Origin: Geobacter sp.
Lineage (GTDB): Bacteria > Desulfobacterota > Desulfuromonadia > Geobacterales > Pseudopelobacteraceae
NCBI GenBank assembly: GCA_003151775.1
Contig: PLYK01000060.1
Coordinates: forward strand, 11,802 to 63,624
Length of the DNA stretch: 51,823 nt
Direction of reading: 5' to 3'
Position numbers and translations under genes: made by a program. Of the stretch, positions 5,921 through 49,626 are shown one piece after another. Under the pieces are notes generated by a model that was not told the origin of the DNA, searched no databases, and saw only the letters and a program-made list of their open reading frames with translations. Numbering within the stretch: the stretch's first letter is position 1; every line of letters starts with the position of its first letter.

Positions 5921-6051
5921 CTCATTATCCAATTAAGTACTTTTTGAAAGGTAATTATGGCTGTTATTGATTCTTTAACGTCTTATTGAATAATTTTTTA
6001 TAACTTTATTCTATATATGATGTCGTAATATTAAGATCACTAGGTATATTA

Positions 6052-6105
6052 AGGGACACTATACCTATTAATTAGCGTAGTCAGAAAAATAGGTATGGTG
6101 TCCCT
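6052..6105. repeat. TACCTATT / AATAGGTA palindromic repeat, complete copy
   Basis: The arms AGGGACACTATACCTATT (6052-6069) and AATAGGTATGGTGTCCCT (6088-6105) pair with one mismatch around an 18-base spacer. It sits in the gap between the TIR-like and Shedu-like genes. The arrangement resembles REP-type palindromes of the GGGACACCATAC class. It could also serve as a hairpin terminator for the TIR-like gene. Confidence 0.75.
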
Positions 6106-6155
6106 GTATTTCCTGTATTTTAGTGTCCATGTATTTTCTTTCATCATACGCCCCA

Positions 6156-6890
6156 TCATTTTAACGCCCTTAAAAGTATTGTAATATCATCACTACTCAC
6201 AACTTCCAAATTCCACCTTTTGGCCGCTTGCTCAAAAACCTGCTCTACAAGCTTCTTTGGTAGATTTGTTTCACTTGCAACATGCGAGAAATGGTATAAC
6301 TCCTTTTCCCCAACCTCGATTGCATCTTGCTGACCTAGCCATTTCTCTAAGATTTTTAGTGCATCATTTTTATCAATTATTTCTTCTTCAGTTGAGCTTT
6401 CTGATGAACAAATCATTTCCAACTCTTTACTTCTTGTTCCTATTCGATGCAAAACCTTCCTTATTTTGTTGCTTGCTGGTCCTAGGGAAGCAACCAAATT
6501 TCCGTCGATTCTTTTGGCTTCATAAGTGCCCGGTGTCATGCCGAGTAAATCTGTAGGCAAATGAAAATCCTCAAAACCTCTAGGAATCAAAATAAAACAT
6601 CTTTCTTTGCCAAGATGACCAATAAACAGACCCAGTTCGAAAATAACGTTATCTCTGGCAGTTAAAAATTCCTTACCGCGTATTTTTATCACATCATCGG
6701 GAGCAAATACAAATACACCAAAGTCAGCTTTTTCAAGATTATCTACTAAAGAATCAAGGGCATATTTTGAAAGATCAAAAATACCTTGAGTCCAAACTGT
6801 TACCTCTGCATCGTGCTCAAGGTTTTCTTGAATCCCATATGCTGTTTCTAAGCTCTCTATTGATGAACCTACAAAAAGACTTGGTTTCAT
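6156..6890 (-). CDS. TIR-like nucleotide-binding protein (CAP12/PycTIR type)
   Basis: The first 125 residues match the TIR-like nucleotide-binding domain found in CBASS and Pycsar effectors, which degrade NAD+ after binding a cyclic-nucleotide signal. Motifs seen are MKPSLFVGSSIE at the start, a VTVWTQGIFDLS stretch, and ARDNVIFELGLFIG with the conserved, probably catalytic Glu at about residue 85. LGKERCFILIPRG and DLLGMTPGTYE follow. The C-terminal 90 residues are charged and helical (KNDALKILEKWLGQQ, then LVEQVFEQAAKRWNLEV) and are not a known cyclic-nucleotide domain that I can recognise. No cyclase or CD-NTase gene lies nearby. It may be a self-contained defence protein sensing its trigger through the C-terminal region, but this is inference. 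Confidence 0.8.
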   Translation of the reverse strand: MKPSLFVGSSIESLETAYGIQENLEHDAEVTVWTQGIFDLSKYALDSLVDNLEKADFGVFVFAPDDVIKIRGKEFLTARDNVIFELGLFIGHLGKERCFILIPRGFEDFHLPTDLLGMTPGTYEAKRIDGNLVASLGPASNKIRKVLHRIGTRSKELEMICSSESSTEEEIIDKNDALKILEKWLGQQDAIEVGEKELYHFSHVASETNLPKKLVEQVFEQAAKRWNLEVVSSDDITILLRALK

Positions 6891-7030
6891 TATGGTACCC
6901 TCTCGAATTGAATAACTGTTTGCTAAATATGATGCGCTCGCAAAAAGTCACTGAAGCAATAAAAATGTCTCTAACAGGTGTCGCTTCCCCCTTCGGCAGG
7001 CAACAAAAACGATTACAGCGCAATTCTGGA

Positions 7031-7072
7031 AGCCGTTTTCTTCTCACGGCTGATTTTCTAATTTATAGGAGC
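7031..7072. repeat. Left inverted end of a 966-bp unit
   Basis: A hairpin (AGCCGT ... ACGGCT, 7031-7051) overlaps CTGATTTTCTAATT, then TAT and AGGAGC. The same arrangement, on the opposite strand and without the TAT, occurs at 7952-7996. Together they bound the unknown gene at 7303-7893. Confidence 0.6.
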
Positions 7073-7081
7073 GCATTTGGT

Positions 7082-7132
7082 GGTCGTGTCTCAACGGGGT
7101 ACAGGTACGTTGTACCGAATTGAGACACGACC
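7082..7132. repeat. Large palindrome of GTCGTGTCTCA family
   Basis: The arms start GGTCGTGTCTCAA and end TTGAGACACGACC. They continue inward to TACA/TGTA with a few mismatches, giving 22-base arms around a 7-base spacer. The core repeats the palindrome at 1856-1880. A further GACCCCTATT lies just to the right. Confidence 0.75.
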
Positions 7133-7302
7133 CCTATTTTTTCCCGACCCCTATTGTTTCCTCTTAGGAGCAAACATTTGGACTCAACCCCTGACATAAG
7201 AAATTTTGGGGAAATTGACTCATGTCATGGGCTAGACCCCTCCGACTGTGACTAGAATGCAGGAATTTGAGAGCAAACACGGCGTGGTTTCTTCTGATTC
7301 AC

Positions 7303-7893
7303 CTAGCCCAGAAGTGATGAAACATAGGCTAACTCTGCTGTTAAAGCAGCTTTAAGATCAATTGCATTTGTGAAGGTAAATAGTTTTTTGTTTCTTATGT
7401 CAAGTAAAGACATGACTATATCCTTGTCGGCGGCTTTTTTAATGGAGTAATGCATTAAAAAAGTAATTATATCGACTCTATTTTTAGTTAATTTTTCAGT
7501 TTTGAAATAAAACTTTACTAGATTTTTTATGCCGTTAATTTCTAAGCCACGTTCAGGATTAACGCTTACAGCTACTCCATGACGCTCAAAAGTACCTGTT
7601 ACGGGTTCAAACCATGAAATATCTTTTTTGCCCCACCATGAATGATACGCTTCTGCGATTTCTGTATAATTGGCTACTTTATTCGGGTGGTTTGCCTTGG
7701 ATACTCCTTGTTTGATTTGAGCCTTTGGTAAAGAATTCCGATGAACTTCAATTATATGTTCTCTCATTCCCCTCCAGTAGTCAAAAGCCGGGTGATAATC
7801 ATCCCGGTTTTTGATTTCTAAAACTTTATTTACTTTTGGAATGCCGGAGGAAGAAACGATGTCTACGAAGTCAGTCAAAGAAATTTTATTCAT
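7303..7893 (-). CDS. Hypothetical protein, 196 residues
   Basis: I do not recognise the family. An AAAGGAG six bases before the ATG supports the start. The protein is soluble, with Trp- and His-rich stretches in its first half (YHPAFDYWRGMREHIIEVHR, YHSWWGKKDISWFEP) and a Lys-rich second half (FYFKTEKLTKNRVDIITFL). It ends in a helical segment rich in Ala and Leu. The coding sequence is AT-rich. It lies inside a unit bounded by matching inverted ends (7031-7072 and 7952-7996), between a TIR-like effector and DinD. A role in defence or in a mobile cassette is possible from position only. Confidence 0.7.
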   Translation of the reverse strand: MNKISLTDFVDIVSSSGIPKVNKVLEIKNRDDYHPAFDYWRGMREHIIEVHRNSLPKAQIKQGVSKANHPNKVANYTEIAEAYHSWWGKKDISWFEPVTGTFERHGVAVSVNPERGLEINGIKNLVKFYFKTEKLTKNRVDIITFLMHYSIKKAADKDIVMSLLDIRNKKLFTFTNAIDLKAALTAELAYVSSLLG

Positions 7894-7951
7894 TGTCCAC
7901 TCCTTTTGTCTTAGAATCTTGTATTATTGCGGCCCGTACTGCTTTAATCGG

Positions 7952-7996
7952 GCTCCTAATTAGAAAATCAGACCGGCCCTGTTTTTGCTAAGGGCC
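7952..7996. repeat. Right inverted end of a 966-bp unit
   Basis: Read on the minus strand this is a hairpin (GGCCCT ... AGGGCC, 7975-7996) followed by CTGATTTTCTAATT and AGGAGC, mirroring 7031-7072. It lies just beyond the stop of the intact dinD and could also end its transcript. On the plus strand the hairpin is followed by TTTT. Confidence 0.6.
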
Positions 7997-8005
7997 TTTT
8001 GGGTC

Positions 8006-29652: not shown

Positions 29653-30156
29653 ATGTCTGACCGCCGCGGTTTCACGCTGATAGAGATCGTCGTGGTGCTG
29701 GTGATCATCGGCATGGTGATGACGCTGGTCATCCCCCGCCTGCCGAACTCCGAGCGGGAGGACCTGAAGATATCGGCACGGACCCTGGCCTCGACGCTGC
29801 GCTACCTCCAGGACCGGGCAGCCACCACCGGAACCACCTATTATCTGCACATGGAGCCGGGCACGGACAACGTCAAGGTGATGCAGGCCACGCCCGACGG
29901 GAGCGAAAAGGAGCCTGACGACCCCTTCCTGCAACAGCGGCCGACCAAGGAAGGTGTCCAGGTCGCGGATGTGGTCATCACCCGCCTGGGCAAACTGATC
30001 GAGGGACAGGTGCGGCTCGACATCGGGGCCGGCGGTCTGCGGGATTTCGTCATCATTCACCTCCGCTCGCCGGCCGGCACGTTCTGGACGGTGATGGGAT
30101 TTCCCTCCAGCGGCAAGGTCAAGGTCTACCAAGGCTACCAGGAAGATGCTCTATGA
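29653..30156 (+). CDS. gspH: Type II secretion pseudopilin GspH
   Basis: The protein starts MSDRRGFTLIEIVVVLVIIG, the type III signal for prepilin peptidase, which cuts after Gly and leaves FTLIE with the key Glu at position 5. The remaining 150 residues form a globular minor pseudopilin. Length (167) fits GspH. It heads a block of four pseudopilin genes with stop-start overlaps. The major pseudopilin GspG and the machinery genes are not in the window. Confidence 0.82.
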   Translation: MSDRRGFTLIEIVVVLVIIGMVMTLVIPRLPNSEREDLKISARTLASTLRYLQDRAATTGTTYYLHMEPGTDNVKVMQATPDGSEKEPDDPFLQQRPTKEGVQVADVVITRLGKLIEGQVRLDIGAGGLRDFVIIHLRSPAGTFWTVMGFPSSGKVKVYQGYQEDAL

Positions 30157-30491
30157 GAGGTTTTACCCTGCTTGAGGTGATGGTGGCCCTGGCCATCATG
30201 GCGAGCGTCATTCTGACGGTGCTGGGTGCGGTCAATTACCACCTGACGATCATTGCCAACGAGCAGGACAGCACCGCCCTGATGATTTTGGCGCGAGCCA
30301 AGCTGTTCGAGTTGGAGATGCAGGGTATCCCCCAGAAGAGTGAAGGGACCCTGGCCCCGGCCCATCCGGAACTCTCCTGGCAGGCCGAGCAGTTTCCCAC
30401 CGACCTACCCGTGCTCCAGAAACTGGTGCTGCGGGTATGGCGAACGAGCGACAAGCGGGAGGTGGTGCTTGAGCGCTATCTCACGAAATAG
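30153..30491 (+). CDS. gspI: Type II secretion pseudopilin GspI
   Basis: A 112-residue minor pseudopilin beginning MRGFTLLEVMVALAIMASV, with the Gly-Phe cleavage site and Glu5. GspI nucleates the tip complex with GspJ and GspK. The ATG overlaps the gspH stop (ATGA). The size matches the family. Confidence 0.85.
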   Translation: MRGFTLLEVMVALAIMASVILTVLGAVNYHLTIIANEQDSTALMILARAKLFELEMQGIPQKSEGTLAPAHPELSWQAEQFPTDLPVLQKLVLRVWRTSDKREVVLERYLTK

Positions 30492-31101
30492 GGGGTTTAC
30501 CCTCTTGGAAGTGTTGATCGCCGTGGTCCTGCTGGGGATCCTTGTTGCCGCACTGTACGGGAGCTATTTCACGGTATTGAAGGCCAGGGAGCGGTCTGCG
30601 CAAGGGATGGAGGAACGCCGGGAGCTGGGTGGTACCCTTGACCTCCTGCGGCGTGAGATCGATGCGGCCCGCTACATCAGCAACGACCAGCGGCTCAAAT
30701 TCGTCGTCGAGGACCGGGACAGTTTCGGCCGGCCGGCCTCCAACCTGGAATTGACGACCCTGGCGCCCCCGGCACCCCTTGTCGCCGGGCGCAAGGAATC
30801 GGGCGTCATCGATGTGCAGTACCGCATGGTGGAGCAGGAGAAGGAACAACTGATCCTGACCCGCAAGGAGCAGGACCTCCTGCTGGCATCGACGACCGTG
30901 CCCGCCTACCCGCAGATGGAGCGGATCAGCTCCTTCCTGGTGGAATGCAGCACCGACGGCTCGAAATGGGTCAAAAGCTGGGACACGGCCCTGAACGGCC
31001 GCCTGCCGAAGTACGTGCGCATCACGGTGCAGGTGGAGGAGCAGGAGGGTCAACTGGTTCAATTTTCCGTCTATGCGGCCCCCAGGGTGACCGGCTCATG
31101 A
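30469..31101 (+). CDS. gspJ: Type II secretion pseudopilin GspJ
   Basis: The mature part starts GFTLLEVLIAVVLLGILVAAL, a clear prepilin-type helix. No ATG is close. The best start is TTG 30469, giving the leader MSAISRNRG, because GGGAGG lies about six bases upstream. This makes it overlap the end of gspI by 23 bases and gives 210 residues, normal for GspJ. The C-terminal part is a beta-rich pseudopilin domain. The stop overlaps the gspK start. Confidence 0.83.
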   Translation: MSAISRNRGFTLLEVLIAVVLLGILVAALYGSYFTVLKARERSAQGMEERRELGGTLDLLRREIDAARYISNDQRLKFVVEDRDSFGRPASNLELTTLAPPAPLVAGRKESGVIDVQYRMVEQEKEQLILTRKEQDLLLASTTVPAYPQMERISSFLVECSTDGSKWVKSWDTALNGRLPKYVRITVQVEEQEGQLVQFSVYAAPRVTGS

Positions 31102-32003
31102 GGGGCGAAAGGGGGTTTGCCCTGGTCCTGACCCTGGTGGTCACCGCCCTGATGGTGGCGGCGGCGGTGGAACTGATCCGCCAGGTGTACGTGGATACGT
31201 CGCTCAACCGCAGCTTCCGCGACGGCCAGCAGGCATCGCTCCTGGCGGAATCGGGGGCCTACGGCGGCATCAAGCTGCTCCAGATGGTGATTTCAGGCCA
31301 GACTTATACGTCGCTCTCCGACAAGTGGGCCGTGCCGTTCAAACAGGAGGACGAGACCGGCCGCATCGAGATCACGATCTCCGAGGAGAGCGGCAAGATC
31401 AACCTCAATGCGCTGATACAGCCTAACAACGAGCCCGACTCGAACGTCATGGGGATGTTGCAACGACTGGGCACGCCACTGCAGATACCGGTAAGCGTGT
31501 GGAACGCCCTGGCGGATTGGATCACCACCGTGCCCCGGGCGGGGGGCGTCGAAAGTCCCTATTACAAAACCCTGAACCCGCCCTATTCTGCCCACAACGG
31601 GAAGATGACGACCGTGAACGAGCTTTCGCTGGTCAAGGGCTTTACAACGGACATGGTCGCCAAGCTCGGGCCGTTCGTGACCATCTATGCCAACCAGACA
31701 GGGAGCATTCCCGGCCAGACCGTCAACGTGAATACCGCCCCCAAGGAGGTCCTCATGGCCCTCGACAGCAGTATCGACAGCCAGAAGGCGGAGCGGATCA
31801 TCGAGCAGCGGAATCTGGCGCCGTTCAAGACCGTCGGCGAGCTGTCGTCACGTGTTGACCCCCTGCTTGCCACGATAACCGGCGTGACATGCCAAGGGAC
31901 CGTCTTCCGGATCACGGCACGGGGTTTCGTCAAGGACGCGGCCCGCACCGTCGAGGCCGTGGTCAGGACAGACGGCACGATACTATCATGGCAGGAGTAC
32001 TGA
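31098..32003 (+). CDS. gspK: Type II secretion pseudopilin GspK
   Basis: The 301-residue protein starts MRGERGFALVLTLVVTALMV and lacks Glu5, as is typical of the GspK tip protein. Near residues 95-110 SGKINLNALI, and later VNVNTAPKEVLMAL and RIIEQR, match the helical GspK insertion with its SAM-like helix-hairpin-helix repeats. The ATG overlaps the gspJ stop. Position as the last and largest of the four pseudopilins fits GspK. Confidence 0.87.
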   Translation: MRGERGFALVLTLVVTALMVAAAVELIRQVYVDTSLNRSFRDGQQASLLAESGAYGGIKLLQMVISGQTYTSLSDKWAVPFKQEDETGRIEITISEESGKINLNALIQPNNEPDSNVMGMLQRLGTPLQIPVSVWNALADWITTVPRAGGVESPYYKTLNPPYSAHNGKMTTVNELSLVKGFTTDMVAKLGPFVTIYANQTGSIPGQTVNVNTAPKEVLMALDSSIDSQKAERIIEQRNLAPFKTVGELSSRVDPLLATITGVTCQGTVFRITARGFVKDAARTVEAVVRTDGTILSWQEY

Positions 32004-32030: not shown

Positions 32031-34307
32031 ATGGCTCTACCGACTGACATCCAACGCCAAGTGTACGACCTGCTCTCCAAGTCGTCAAACCTCTCGTTCG
32101 TAAGCGCCGAACAGGAACCGGGGGCACGGGTCAGTTTCGTTCCCGGCCAGCAGGTAAGCGCCCAGGTGCTGACAACGCTGCCGAACAACCTGACCCAGGT
32201 GCAGATCGGCGCGGAGCGCTTAAACCTGGCCCTGCCGATGGCGGTCCGTCCGGGGCAGACCCTGGAGATGACCTTTGTCTCGGGGGAGCCCCGCTCGACC
32301 TTTGCCGTTGCCCGCCAGGACGCCGCCGCCCCGCCGGTCAGTCTGTCGGACGCGTCCCGGCTGTTGAGCCTGCTGGTGGACAGCGAAGAGATCGTTGACC
32401 CGCAACTGCGGGCCTCCTTACAGAGTATCGGCGATATGCTGCGGCGCTCATCGGGAGAGGCCGGCGTTCTTGCCAACCTGATGGACGAGGCCCTTACCTA
32501 TGGGGCGGCACGCGAAGGGAGCACCGGGCCAACCCTGCTGCCGGATCTCCCTCTCCTGCAGGGTCGTGCCGGACAGGGAGCCGGGATGGCGGCGGGAGAC
32601 CAGGTCGTCCCCCCCGAGCAGGCGCGCCTGTCGTCCTTTGAGGCCAATGCGGCCCAGATCCTCCGGAGTATCGCCCGCACCGCCCAATTTGACCTGACCG
32701 AGGCGGCTAACCCGCCGGTAACGCCGCTTCCCCTCAAGTCGGGAGAGGAGGTTGACGCGGCGGTGGTCGGCACCTTGCCAGGAGGCCGGGTGATTGTCCA
32801 GCTTGCGGGGACGTCGCTGGAACTGGTTGTCCCCCGGCCGGTTCAAAGCGGGGACATCCTCCGTCTAACCTTCATCACGTCCGACCCCCGGCCGCTGTTT
32901 GCGCTGCAACGGCCCGCCGCCGGCGTCCCCAGCTCCCTCAGCGAGGCCGGTCGCTGGCTGAGCGCGCTGGAGCACAGCGAAGGGGGCGTTACGGAACAAC
33001 AGATGCACGTGCTGGAGCGGCTGAACACGGTACTGGAAAGCCTGCCGCCGGATTCGCCGGCCTTTACCGCGATTCTGGACGAGGCCATCACCTATCAGAC
33101 GGTCATGCGCGGACGCCAGCCCGCCGGACCACCGTCACCACAGCCGGACCTTGCGCTCCAGGCGGGAGCAGCACTCCAGGCGAATGCAGCACTCCAGTCG
33201 GGCGCCGTGCCGGGCCAGCAGGCCGCCCTCCAGCCCGGAAGCGGCATCGTCCTCAGCGACGACATGGCCAAACTGCTCCAGGCGTTGATCAAGGGAAACC
33301 GCCTGGCTCTCCTTGAGGCCATCAACCAGCAGGCCTCCGGGACCGGATTTCCGTCCGGCCAGCAGTTCAAGGGCGAAATTATGACCTCCCTGGGTGGGGG
33401 GCGCTTCGTGGTGCAGGTAGCCGGTCAATCCCTGGAATTCACGCTGCCCAAGGGCATCAGGCAAGGCGACATGGTCACGCTCTTCTTCGTCTCCGACGAA
33501 CCGCAACCCACCTTCCTGATGGCCCGCTTCGGGAAGCCCGGCGATGCGCTGGTCAGCGAAACCGGCCGCTGGCTGAGCGGATTTCTCGGCGCTGCCGGTG
33601 AGCAACTGCCGGCCCTGGAGACCCTGGGGATCTTGAAAACCCTGTTCTCCGAGCCGCCGACCGATGCCTCCCAGGTAAGCCGGTTTCTAAAGCAGGGGTT
33701 GCAGGAAGGGGGCCTGTTTTACGAATCCCACCTGGCGCGCTGGTTTGGCGGCGACTATCCCCTGGAAGATCTTTTACGGGAACCACAGGGCCAGTTGTCC
33801 TCACTACGCCGCCCGCCCGGACTGGAGATGGCCAATCCGGGACAGGACGCGGCTCTGGCAGGCTTGAAAAGCGGATCGATGGAGGTCATGGAGGCTGCGC
33901 TCAAGATGGCCGGCGCCGCCGTGGCCCATGAAGGAATCGTGGACCAGCAGGCCCTGCCGATTGTCAAGGAGCAATTGACGGCGTTGCAAATCGGACAAAT
34001 CCTCTTTCGCGGGGACATGGTTCCGGGCCAACGGATGGAGTGGACGGTGCGGGAACGCGAAGCGCGCCGGAATGCGTCCGGGGAGCAGGAGCGCTCCTGG
34101 GAGACGTCGCTCACGCTGGATATGCCGAAGCTGGGGAATGTCACGGCCAGCCTGAAGCTTGACGGCGCCAGGGTCAGCATCGAACTGGGCGCACCAAAAC
34201 CCGGCTCGGCGGAACGTCTGAAGGCGGGCATTGCCCGTCTTGCCGAGCAGCTTGAGGCGTCCGGGCTTTTGCCAAAGGAGATCGGTATAACAGATGAAAT
34301 CCCGTAA
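32031..34307 (+). CDS. FliK-like protein with three internal repeats
   Basis: The 758-residue protein has a module repeated three times, near residues 38-120, 238-318 and 445-520. Each unit contains a LTTLPNNLTQVQIG-, VGTLPGGRVIVQLAG- or MTSLGGGRFVVQVAG-like strand, then L-x-L-P, G-x-x-L-x-x-x-F and a SEAGRWLS-like helix. The second half of repeats 1 and 2 ends with a DEALTYG or DEAITYQ helix. A conserved FYESHLARWFGGDYPL block is near residue 563. The last 130 residues resemble the C-terminal domain of FliK (hook-length control). The gene overlaps an FlhB C-domain gene, the natural partner of FliK. A separate, more classical FliK is at 47719. Confidence 0.75.
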   Translation: MALPTDIQRQVYDLLSKSSNLSFVSAEQEPGARVSFVPGQQVSAQVLTTLPNNLTQVQIGAERLNLALPMAVRPGQTLEMTFVSGEPRSTFAVARQDAAAPPVSLSDASRLLSLLVDSEEIVDPQLRASLQSIGDMLRRSSGEAGVLANLMDEALTYGAAREGSTGPTLLPDLPLLQGRAGQGAGMAAGDQVVPPEQARLSSFEANAAQILRSIARTAQFDLTEAANPPVTPLPLKSGEEVDAAVVGTLPGGRVIVQLAGTSLELVVPRPVQSGDILRLTFITSDPRPLFALQRPAAGVPSSLSEAGRWLSALEHSEGGVTEQQMHVLERLNTVLESLPPDSPAFTAILDEAITYQTVMRGRQPAGPPSPQPDLALQAGAALQANAALQSGAVPGQQAALQPGSGIVLSDDMAKLLQALIKGNRLALLEAINQQASGTGFPSGQQFKGEIMTSLGGGRFVVQVAGQSLEFTLPKGIRQGDMVTLFFVSDEPQPTFLMARFGKPGDALVSETGRWLSGFLGAAGEQLPALETLGILKTLFSEPPTDASQVSRFLKQGLQEGGLFYESHLARWFGGDYPLEDLLREPQGQLSSLRRPPGLEMANPGQDAALAGLKSGSMEVMEAALKMAGAAVAHEGIVDQQALPIVKEQLTALQIGQILFRGDMVPGQRMEWTVREREARRNASGEQERSWETSLTLDMPKLGNVTASLKLDGARVSIELGAPKPGSAERLKAGIARLAEQLEASGLLPKEIGITDEIP

Positions 34308-34566
34308 AGATGAAGAACGCCGCGCCGCGGCCCTTGCCTACAAGCAGGGCTACTATGCCCCGGTGGTCGTCGCCAGGGGCAAGGGGGTGCTGGCCGAGGC
34401 GATCATCGCCTGCGCACGTGAAGCGGGGGTTTATGTCCACGAATCGCCGGAACTGCTCAACCTGCTGATGCAGGTGGACACCGACCGGTTCATCCCGCCG
34501 GAATTGTACCGCGCCGTGGCGGAGGTGCTGGTCTGGCTGTACGGAATTGAAGGGGAACGGCAGTGA
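34294..34566 (+). CDS. FlhB C-terminal-domain protein
   Basis: The 90-residue protein corresponds to the cytoplasmic C-terminal part of FlhB after its autocleavage site: ALAYKQGYYAPVVVARGKG, then VHESPELLNLLMQ and FIPPELYRAVAEVLVWLYG. Free-standing paralogues (FlhX/FlhB2-like) are known in some bacteria and can partly replace the cleaved FlhB tail. It overlaps the FliK-like gene by 14 bases. FliK-FlhB contact sets export specificity, so the pair probably acts together. Confidence 0.85.
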   Translation: MKSRKDEERRAAALAYKQGYYAPVVVARGKGVLAEAIIACAREAGVYVHESPELLNLLMQVDTDRFIPPELYRAVAEVLVWLYGIEGERQ

Positions 34567-40633: not shown

Positions 40634-41056
40634 ATGCCGATTGACGGAATTTTTGGCACAACCATTGATTTGCTGGGTAAAAACATCGACCTGCGGGCCA
40701 AAAGCCAAAACCTGATCTCTTCGAATATCGCCAACGCGGAAACCCCCAACTATATCCCTAAATCTCTGGACTTCGAGCAGGAATTGCAGGGTGCGGTCAA
40801 AAATGGCGGCAAAGGGACGCCGGCCATCACCAACCCGCGGCATCTGCAGTTGAAAGGGGCCGCAGCCCGCCTCCAGTCCGTGACCGGGCACGTCGTCGAA
40901 ACCCCTGCCAAGACCCCCGGCAACGACGGCAATGCGGTGGAACTGGAAAATGAGATGGGCAAGCTGCTCGAGAACCAGATCATGTACAACGCCTCGGTCC
41001 AGATGCTCTCTAAAAAGTTCGGTGATTTGACTACAGCAATCAAGGGAGGCATCTAA
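40634..41056 (+). CDS. flgB: Flagellar basal-body rod protein FlgB
   Basis: FlgB forms the proximal rod. The protein starts MPIDGIFGTTIDLLGKNIDL and contains the rod signature SSNIANAETPNYIPKSLDFE. The C-terminal helix has LLENQIMYNASVQMLSKKFG. I chose ATG 40634 with GGGAAGGA upstream (140 residues, normal); longer in-frame starts run into sequence without family resemblance. It overlaps flgC by one base and opens the flagellar cluster. Confidence 0.93.
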   Translation: MPIDGIFGTTIDLLGKNIDLRAKSQNLISSNIANAETPNYIPKSLDFEQELQGAVKNGGKGTPAITNPRHLQLKGAAARLQSVTGHVVETPAKTPGNDGNAVELENEMGKLLENQIMYNASVQMLSKKFGDLTTAIKGGI

Positions 41057-47718: not shown

Positions 47719-49626
47719 ATGGATACAGGACAGATAAGTTTGATGCCGGCGAATGTCGGTATGCCGACGCCGGCCGGTGCACAACCACCCTCCCTCACAA
47801 CATTGCTGTCAGAGCCGGGAGAACAGGCTGGCGGGCCGTTCGCCGGGTTGCTGGAGGGAATGACGCCCCCGAAGACCCCACAGGGGGCGGCGGCGCCCGT
47901 TTCCGTCGGCAAAGGTGTTCCGGCGCCGGAGAAAAACGGCGAGACCGACTCGACAACGGCGGTGCAGGATGGTGTGTCCGGGTTGATGGCAGGATTGCTG
48001 AATGCGCTTGACGCGGCCGTCAAGCCGTTGGCAACGGGTACGAAACAGAGTAACGGGGCGCCGGTAACGGCGAACAGGCCGGACAGGAAACCACAGGACG
48101 TGGTCCTGAATGCAGCCGGGATGCAACCCCCCCCTCTGCTGACTCAGGCAGATGGCGGCAGGATGCCGCAGGCCGGAGGTTTGGTTGTGCAACAGCCGGT
48201 TGCTGCATCGGTGGCCGACGCCGCAGTCACATCGCTTTCGAACAATGGCGGCTCTTTGGGTATCGTTGTTGCGACGAACGCAGCTGCGGGTGGCGGGCTG
48301 AATCCGCCCGAAAGCTTGTTGAACCCCAGCCGGTCCGCCATGGCGGCGAACGGCCACTTGCAGGGTGCGTCAACAGATTCCACAGCCCTTTTTGTGGTGC
48401 CGAAAGGAAATGAACCACAGCATACTTCACAAAAGGAACCGGACAGCACGGCTCTTTCAACCTTGACCTTGCCTTCACGGCTGGTTTCGGCCATTGTCGA
48501 GCAACAGAACCCGGCGGCCGTGAGCAGCACCCTTTCCACAGAACGTGGTACAGCGCCAAGCAAACTAATCGGAAGCGTCAGCGGCGCCGCAGCTCCGGTT
48601 TCCGGATCACCCGGCCCTGGTAATGGGGTTGCTGAAGTCCGCACAACAGGGCAGGCTCGAGATGTTTTATCGGCGCAGAATACGCCGGTAGCGGAAATCC
48701 CTGCAGCATCTACGGCAATGACAGTGCAAACGGAGCCGCAGCAGGATGCCGGTCCCGTAAAATCAGGCGTGATGCCGGTACAGGTCGCGCCGTCGCCGGC
48801 TTCTTCGCAACAGCCGGACCAAGCAGTAACAGCAAATAACCATACCCTTGAAGGAACCATGCCTGTTCAGGCGGCTTTTGTGCCTGCGGCAGGGAAAATG
48901 GGTGTGGAAGCCGGTGTAGAAGCTGCCCAGACGCGGCCTGAGAGCGCGGCAACGGCAAAGCCGGTGCAAAGCATTACGGTTGAGGCGGTAAAACTCGCCG
49001 AAGCCGGGTCATCCGGGGGAGAATTGAGCACCGGCGACGACAAGGGTACGGCCGGCAACTTCATGAACGGCCAGTTCCATGCCACCTTGATGCACCAGCA
49101 GGGGAACGCTGACGGTGCAAGCGCAGCAAGCAACGTCCCCGTTCCGGTTCAAAACGATGCACAGCAGTCCGGCCTGCCGGAGCAGATTATGCAGCAGGTC
49201 AGGGATCGTTTGGTGAATCACGAGGTCAAAGCGGGCAACGATCAGATCGTGCTCAGGCTTTCACCGGAAAACCTCGGCGAATTGAAGGTGAACCTGACCA
49301 TGGACGGGCAGAGCTTGAAGGTCCAGATCGTTGCGGAAAACCACATGGTGCGTGATGCGCTGCTGCAAAATACCGGTTCGCTCAAGGAGTCGCTGGCGCG
49401 GCAGAATATCAGCATGGAGTCGTTTGACGTGACGACCAATGGCCGCGGGGCAGGAAACCCCGGCCAGGGGCAGCAGCAGAACGGCTGGCGCGAGTTTGCC
49501 CAGCAGAAGCAGGAGAACACCTGGCAGTCGTCCGGCGGTTACCGCCTGCCGGATACGACGACAGTTCCAGGCCAGTTGGCGTATCAAACGCCATCGCAGC
49601 ATACGATGGTCGATCTCCATTTTTGA
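47719..49626 (+). CDS. fliK: Flagellar hook-length control protein FliK
   Basis: FliK measures hook length and switches export specificity through FlhB. The 635-residue protein has a long Ala/Pro/Gly/Gln-rich disordered N-terminal part. A conserved C-terminal domain follows (IVLRLSPENLGELKVNLTMD, then LKVQIVAENHMVRDALLQN and LKESLARQNISMESFDV). An ideal AAAGGAGGTGA precedes the ATG. It lies just before flgD, as expected. A second FliK-like gene with a different plan is at 32031. Confidence 0.9.
   Translation: MDTGQISLMPANVGMPTPAGAQPPSLTTLLSEPGEQAGGPFAGLLEGMTPPKTPQGAAAPVSVGKGVPAPEKNGETDSTTAVQDGVSGLMAGLLNALDAAVKPLATGTKQSNGAPVTANRPDRKPQDVVLNAAGMQPPPLLTQADGGRMPQAGGLVVQQPVAASVADAAVTSLSNNGGSLGIVVATNAAAGGGLNPPESLLNPSRSAMAANGHLQGASTDSTALFVVPKGNEPQHTSQKEPDSTALSTLTLPSRLVSAIVEQQNPAAVSSTLSTERGTAPSKLIGSVSGAAAPVSGSPGPGNGVAEVRTTGQARDVLSAQNTPVAEIPAASTAMTVQTEPQQDAGPVKSGVMPVQVAPSPASSQQPDQAVTANNHTLEGTMPVQAAFVPAAGKMGVEAGVEAAQTRPESAATAKPVQSITVEAVKLAEAGSSGGELSTGDDKGTAGNFMNGQFHATLMHQQGNADGASAASNVPVPVQNDAQQSGLPEQIMQQVRDRLVNHEVKAGNDQIVLRLSPENLGELKVNLTMDGQSLKVQIVAENHMVRDALLQNTGSLKESLARQNISMESFDVTTNGRGAGNPGQGQQQNGWREFAQQKQENTWQSSGGYRLPDTTTVPGQLAYQTPSQHTMVDLHF

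Follow-up and report, generated by a model that had tools for sequence, protein, structure and literature searches.

Gene content of the locus

The window (the whole stretch of 51,823 nucleotides of Geobacter sp. DNA that was analysed) encodes two FliK-like proteins. One is a classical FliK, whose gene adjoins flgD in a flagellar cluster; the other, designated FliK2, contains tandem modules, and its gene overlaps that of a small FlhB-like protein, FlhX. The features of the locus are as follows.

32031..34307, + strand: fliK2, encoding a 758-residue FliK-like protein with three tandem modules and a C-terminal switch domain (open reading frame, Pfam and profile)
32046..32501, + strand: module A of FliK2, residues 6-157; helix, small barrel, helices (profile and predicted model)
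32502..32642, + strand: linker 1 of FliK2, residues 158-204; Gly/Ala/Pro/Gln-rich, low model confidence
32643..33095, + strand: module B of FliK2, residues 205-355 (profile and predicted models)
33096..33254, + strand: linker 2 of FliK2, residues 356-408 (model and composition)
33255..33704, + strand: module C of FliK2, residues 409-558 (profile and predicted model)
33705..33806, + strand: segment of FliK2, residues 559-592, with the motif FYESHLARW...EPQ (motif comparison among related orfs)
34068..34289, + strand: Flg_hook / T3S4 specificity-switch domain of FliK2, residues 680-753 (Pfam, weak fold matches)
34274..34282, + strand: AAAGGAGAT, within the 3′ end of fliK2; probably the ribosome-binding site of flhX (judged by eye)
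34294..34566, + strand: flhX, encoding a 90-residue stand-alone FlhB C-terminal domain; overlaps fliK2 by 14 nucleotides
47719..49626, + strand: classical fliK, 635 residues, in the flagellar cluster (Pfam, E 9e-21)

The first flagellar rod gene to be recognised, flgC-like, is at 41056, approximately 6.5 kb beyond the end of the fliK2-flhX pair, and pgm, cheY-like and cheX-like genes lie between them. Among 17 named loci, pgm is found downstream of the pair in 16 (far downstream in one of these) and cheY-cheX in 13, several of the loci being truncated. On the 5′ side, pseudopilin-type genes and genes resembling components J and K of type II secretion systems (29653-32003) end 27 nucleotides before fliK2; the J/K-like genes are upstream in only two of the 17 named loci, both of Oryzomonas. 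Elsewhere in the window, positions 6001-8000 have a GC content of 0.384, compared with 0.46-0.66 in the other 2-kb steps, which suggests a foreign or otherwise distinct stretch.

Three tandem modules in FliK2

The preliminary description had recognised the same module three times in the N-terminal part of FliK2, and a pairwise shuffle test and a profile search agree that the repeats are real. When one partner of each pair of segments was shuffled 1000 times, residues 1-200 aligned with residues 201-400 at a score of 221 (maximum of the shuffles 72) and with residues 401-600 at 129 (maximum 59), while residues 201-400 aligned with residues 401-600 at 193 (maximum 60), and none of the 1000 shuffles reached the observed score in any of the three comparisons. 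The segment 601-758 has no such similarity to the three repeat segments, its scores being reached by 111, 157 and 651 of 1000 shuffles. An iterated profile of 153 positions finds exactly three full-length copies in FliK2, at 187-196 bits each, and a profile comparison does not detect the module in the window's classical FliK. The extents first given for the repeat (38-120, 238-318 and 445-520) correctly cover the first helix and the central strands of each module but are too short: the full unit is approximately 153 residues long, with one additional helix ahead of the strands and helices behind them. The motifs share a theme, as described, but their wording varies by copy (TLPNNL, TLPGGR and SLGGGR), and the helix given as SEAGRWLS is a shared element that is not identical among the copies (SDASRLLS, SEAGRWLS and SETGRWLS).

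Purifying selection acts on all three modules, whose dN/dS is 0.11-0.32 in four within-genus comparisons, and the linkers between them, rich in glycine, alanine, proline and glutamine, are less constrained (dN/dS 0.20-0.68 in the same number of such comparisons). The motif FYESHLARW...EPQ that follows module C is present in 36 of 37 related orfs, including that of the window; the sole orf that lacks it corresponds to the N-terminal part of a gene that is split in two. Residues 410-487 also have a weak DnaJ-type match (NCBIfam, E 0.005, far under the cut-off) and DnaJ-type matches in the PDB (E 0.028 and 0.079), which may be due to chance.

Predicted fold of the modules

The modules are alike in structure prediction, as the preliminary description would lead one to expect. 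In the full-length model of 758 residues, which is of low confidence overall (mean pLDDT 51.8), six strands are placed in module A (21-27, 41-49, 55-59, 62-66, 77-84, 90-94) and in module B (220-225, 240-249, 253-258, 261-266, 276-283, 289-293), and the last five in module C (between 445 and 499), of which the first strand is unplaced. A separate model of module B, built from 51 aligned modules, has six strands after the first helix; the strands are confident (block means 82-91 for residues 21-90) and the later helices poor. Each copy is predicted from these models to hold a small OB-like barrel of five or six strands, together with helices.

Module residues of approximately 24-93 superpose on the barrels of NusA, S1 and IF5A at Z scores of 5-6.3. 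The best superposition on an OB-type barrel (Z 6.3, rmsd 2.7 over 64 residues) remains under Z 8, and the likeness to OB-fold, S1 and IF1-type barrels is perhaps just a common arrangement. The modules have no significant sequence match to OB-type barrels, and Foldseek found no match under E 0.001 for either the module B model or the full-length model. Nucleic-acid binding by the barrels was considered and set aside, since all that suggested it was a widespread fold with intermediate Z scores and an eIF-1a match that fell short of its cut-off. Many metallo-beta-lactamase chains in the full-length Foldseek search (E ~0.05-0.16) were taken as noise.

The switch domain and the overlapping gene flhX

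The annotation of FliK2 as FliK-like is upheld by its C-terminus, where residues 680-753 match Flg_hook (PF02120) with an E value of 1.4e-14 and 54.1 bits, above the cut-off of 29.8. Structure comparison of the full-length model with the PDB ranks the switch domain of PscP (5cuk) first (E 0.013) and the C-terminal domain of FliK (2rrl) fourth (E 0.047), both weak matches, and the C-terminal end matches 2rrl by sequence at E 0.12. The presence of a classical FliK at 47719, also reported previously, is confirmed by Flg_hook at E 9e-21. An injectisome needle-length protein was rejected as the identity of FliK2, which the YscP model TIGR02514 does not match at E ≤1 and whose HpaP match falls below the cut-off. 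The sequence of FliK2 is free of cysteine; since the same holds for FliF and FliG of the window, this depletion is weak evidence for export.

The strongest clue to the function of FliK2 is the overlapping gene flhX, which the preliminary description had missed. The start of flhX lies within fliK2, and the stop codon of fliK2 lies inside the 14-nucleotide overlap. FlhX matches positions 262-334 of the 335-position Pfam model PF01312 (59 bits, cut-off 24.4), without the membrane part, and it resembles solved structures of the FlhB C-terminal domain. Its score against the NCBIfam model TIGR00789 (FlhB-like) is 75.9 bits, below the cut-off of 117.35, and therefore the TIGR00789 name is not claimed; that cut-off is reached in none of 198 genomes of the phylum and in two of 14 control genomes. 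The NPTH autocleavage motif does not occur near the start of the domain in FlhX or in any of 70 distinct FlhX sequences. In those 70 sequences, the positions aligned to A286, P287, A341 and L344 of Salmonella FlhB are alanine in 66, proline in 69, alanine in 70 and leucine in 61, respectively; a 2026 study describes these four residues as the early-substrate pocket of Salmonella FlhB (PMC13344023).

History of the triplication

The number of repeats varies: 29 proteins, including that of the window, have three modules (705-790 residues) and six have one (324-657 residues). In a tree of 96 modules (L002 and both pieces of the split gene of G004 were left out), modules A, B and C each form one clade of 29 out of 29, with supports of 0.987, 0.995 and 0.739. 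Therefore the triplication preceded the radiation of the family, with no subsequent homogenisation of the copies; a recent duplication or assembly artefact was rejected because of the same pattern.

Three modules in a single orf are found in 20 of the 22 family genomes that have fliK2. One of the others, G011, has a single module, of which residues 1-100 are most similar to module A of a relative in the same genus (score 284, versus 115 for B and 109 for C) and residues 101-160 to module C (151, versus 23 and 48 for A and B). The start of A is thus joined to the end of C, the signature of contraction by recombination between copies. Five relatives from other families also have a single module, and these may be ancestral or contracted, the tree being compatible with either. 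The remaining family genome, G004, consists of one contig in which fliK2 is split near linker 1 into pieces of 238 and 514 residues (L011, L030), either by a real break or by a sequencing error.

Occurrence among relatives and across the phylum

In a set of 39 relatives, including the genome of the window itself, 27 genomes have fliK2, 33 have FlhA and 33 have FlhB-family proteins. A short FlhB-like protein is encoded directly after fliK2 in all 27, as located by genome coordinates (the loci L028, L030 and L044 end before flhX, L044 being cut by the end of a contig). All 27 genomes with the pair have FlhA and FlhB, and 26 have a second Flg_hook protein; the exception, G016, is fragmented and shows one. 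Six genomes that lack FlhA, 92-100% complete, contain no fliK2, no short FlhB-like protein and no FlhB-family protein. The earlier suggestion that FliK2 might serve a separate secretion path is made unlikely by this confinement of the pair to genomes with flhA (27 of 27, versus none of the six without flhA).

A sample of 198 genomes of the phylum was searched for FlhX, which was counted among the matches listed; for G045, G053, G059 and G210, which have long open frames, it was included by position. At least 74 genomes have FlhX among the matches listed, 73 of them with FlhA, whereas 42 have FlhA without FlhX among the matches listed and 82 have neither. In the phylum sample as a whole, FlhX is thus among the matches listed in 73 of 115 genomes with FlhA. 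Since the pair is missing from six of 33 flagellate relatives (one of which, G021, is only 74% complete) and no FlhX is listed for 42 of 115 genomes of the phylum with FlhA, it is dispensable for flagella. One assembly, G147, has FlhX but no FlhA match at 96% completeness; it is probably missing contigs, and otherwise is an exception to the flagellar link.

Thirty FlhX loci were taken from the phylum, seven of which have no suitable upstream orf in the available stretch; with L054 and L058 from the module search, 25 distinct upstream orfs were compared. Flg_hook is detected at E ≤0.01 in 20 of these (under the cut-off in some) and not in the other five. An N-terminal profile was built from 17 of the 25, chosen by eye; L075, L078, L086, L087, L095, L097, L098 and L101 were left out owing to a cut at the locus end, near-duplication, membership in other families or the lack of a clear module. 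This profile matches the module profile with 97.3% probability (E 2.4e-11), a result that holds for those 17 orfs. When the module profile was searched directly against the 198 genomes, 14 matched: four family members with three copies each and ten other genomes with one copy each (one at E 1e-9, nine at E 4e-4 to 0.01). FlhX is present at six of the ten non-family loci; two others, L057 and L062, were not seen beside FlhX or Flg_hook and may be chance matches. Judged by these sequence comparisons, other parts of the phylum have relatives with one module encoded next to flhX, and FliK2 is a tandem-module variant of a recurrent, poorly annotated FliK-FlhX pair.

FlhX-like matches were also obtained in 16 records of plasmids or chromids, three of which were inspected. 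In Cupriavidus metallidurans, the orf upstream of flhX scores 84 bits with the C-terminal profile; it contains the segment FYE[SA]HLA.W...EPQ and adjoins orfs that read, by eye, as flagellin and FliD. A profile search found no match to the module in this Cupriavidus FliK, and hence the module is not universal. In Acetoanaerobium, the module match is weak (E 0.043, probability 1.2%) and was not used; the 847-residue protein encoded before FlhX (L104, 1455-3998) shows weak internal repetition of its helical region, with a best window score of 74, whereas 60 coarser shuffles gave at most 61. In Bacillus velezensis, an FlhB-like gene, whose product we take to be the FlhX counterpart YlqH, and the gene of a preceding protein, presumably YlqG, are located between rnhB and sucC. 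The gene order is that of the fliK2-flhX pair, with the FlhB-like gene directly after, but the N-terminus of the YlqG-type protein matches the single-module profile weakly (E 3e-4, probability 39%), with one possible module only, and its sequence has no Pfam Flg_hook match at E ≤1 and no match to the C-terminal profile. The B. velezensis protein (L102, 2280-3983) is annotated as 'glycosyl transferase', yet it has no Pfam glycosyltransferase match at E 1.

Proposed function of the fliK2-flhX pair

A switch domain encoded next to a free FlhB C-terminal domain points to a probable accessory switch for flagellar export, and we consider it reasonably probable that fliK2 and flhX belong together as a coupled cassette, which provides the type III export gate of the flagellum with a second, accessory switch of substrate specificity. 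One study reports that Salmonella FliK measures the hook and acts on FlhB through its C-terminus, hook length being set by the length of the ruler (PMC6972891); another proposes that FliK ejects the cleaved C-terminal domain of FlhB and that the pause needed for switching comes from a folded region of FliK (PMC13344023). In the proposed cassette, fliK2 and flhX would be translationally coupled, and FliK2 would enter the export gate late in hook building, where its C-terminus would contact the FlhB C-terminal domain as that of FliK does. Its folded modules, having to unfold successively to pass the gate, would slow its transit and give the switch domain time to engage; alternatively, the modules might be cytoplasmic spacers. 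FlhX could serve as a decoy, as a partner or as a substitute for the FlhB domain ejected by FliK, while the classical FliK would remain the hook ruler. Given the low confidence of the full-length model, it is the barrel parts, with block means of 82-91 in the model of module B, that carry the idea of a brake, and the comparison with Salmonella FliK differs in that the folded region that matters there lies inside the switch domain, whereas the modules of FliK2 are all N-terminal to it. A more elaborate and rather speculative version would have the barrels act as timed brakes while FliK2 takes the C-terminal domain away from FlhB and the vacated dock is refilled, or blocked, by the uncleavable FlhX, so that the switch would be resettable or two-staged and the number of modules would tune the pause and not the length of the hook.

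Three other explanations were weighed. FliK2 might be the true hook-length ruler, or a second one, with the number of modules setting the length, as its FliK-type switch domain, the dependence of hook length on ruler length in Salmonella (PMC6972891) and the occurrence of three-module and one-module forms would permit. We regard this as improbable: nearly every genome with the pair (26 of 27) has a second Flg_hook protein, the classical FliK of the window, beside flgD, is a likelier ruler than FliK2, and the three-module proteins, all of similar length (705-790 residues), alongside one-module proteins of 324-657 residues would predict very different hooks among relatives. The pair might instead be a set of spare parts, FlhX for the C-terminal domain of FlhB and FliK2 for FliK. 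FlhX does retain the residues of the early-substrate pocket, and there is a precedent for the FlhB part in Helicobacter HP1575, which, going by the title of a 2006 paper by Wand, reportedly allows flagellar export once the FlhB domain has been deleted. However, the retention of three modules in one orf by 20 of 22 family genomes with fliK2, together with the separate clade formed by each positional copy, suggests that FliK2 has a task of its own, and a purely backup role appears unlikely.

Finally, FliK2 might work not with the flagellum but with the neighbouring genes of type II secretion or pilus type, which end 27 nucleotides upstream in the window. This is very hard to reconcile with the conservation of the locus, in which the J/K-like genes precede the pair in two of the 17 named loci while pgm follows it in 16 and cheY-cheX in 13, and with the tracking of flhA by the pair; a type II secretion partner was rejected on synteny.

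Relation to known systems and significance

FliK2 has in common with FliK (PF02120) a C-terminal switch domain that scores above the curated cut-off and an occurrence in flagellate genomes; it differs by the three predicted folded modules at its N-terminus and the overlap of its gene with flhX, and the genome of the window encodes a classical FliK besides. Stand-alone FlhB C-terminal domains are also described as FlhX or FlhB2 (HP1575 of Helicobacter, FlhX of Campylobacter), but the flhX gene studied here adjoins that of a FliK with tandem modules. One paper mentions a separate flhX-fliK locus in Nitratiruptor (PMC9321776). Among the open-licence papers listed on FliK (its paralogs, Geobacter FliK and, for its roles as ruler and switch, 10 of 35 papers), FlhX, FlhB2 and ylqG/ylqH, titles and abstract openings mention no tandem modules in a FliK, and a search of the open-licence literature yielded no paper on FliK and the OB fold.

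How type III export switches its specificity has been studied for a long time, and the proteins of the FlhX pair are poorly annotated even though FlhX is among the matches listed in 73 of the 115 genomes of the phylum sample that have FlhA. A FliK that has extra folded modules and is coupled to a spare C-terminal domain of FlhB lacking the cleavage motif offers a natural test of the model of ejection and pausing set out in PMC13344023, and its one-module and three-module relatives are natural variants for comparison.
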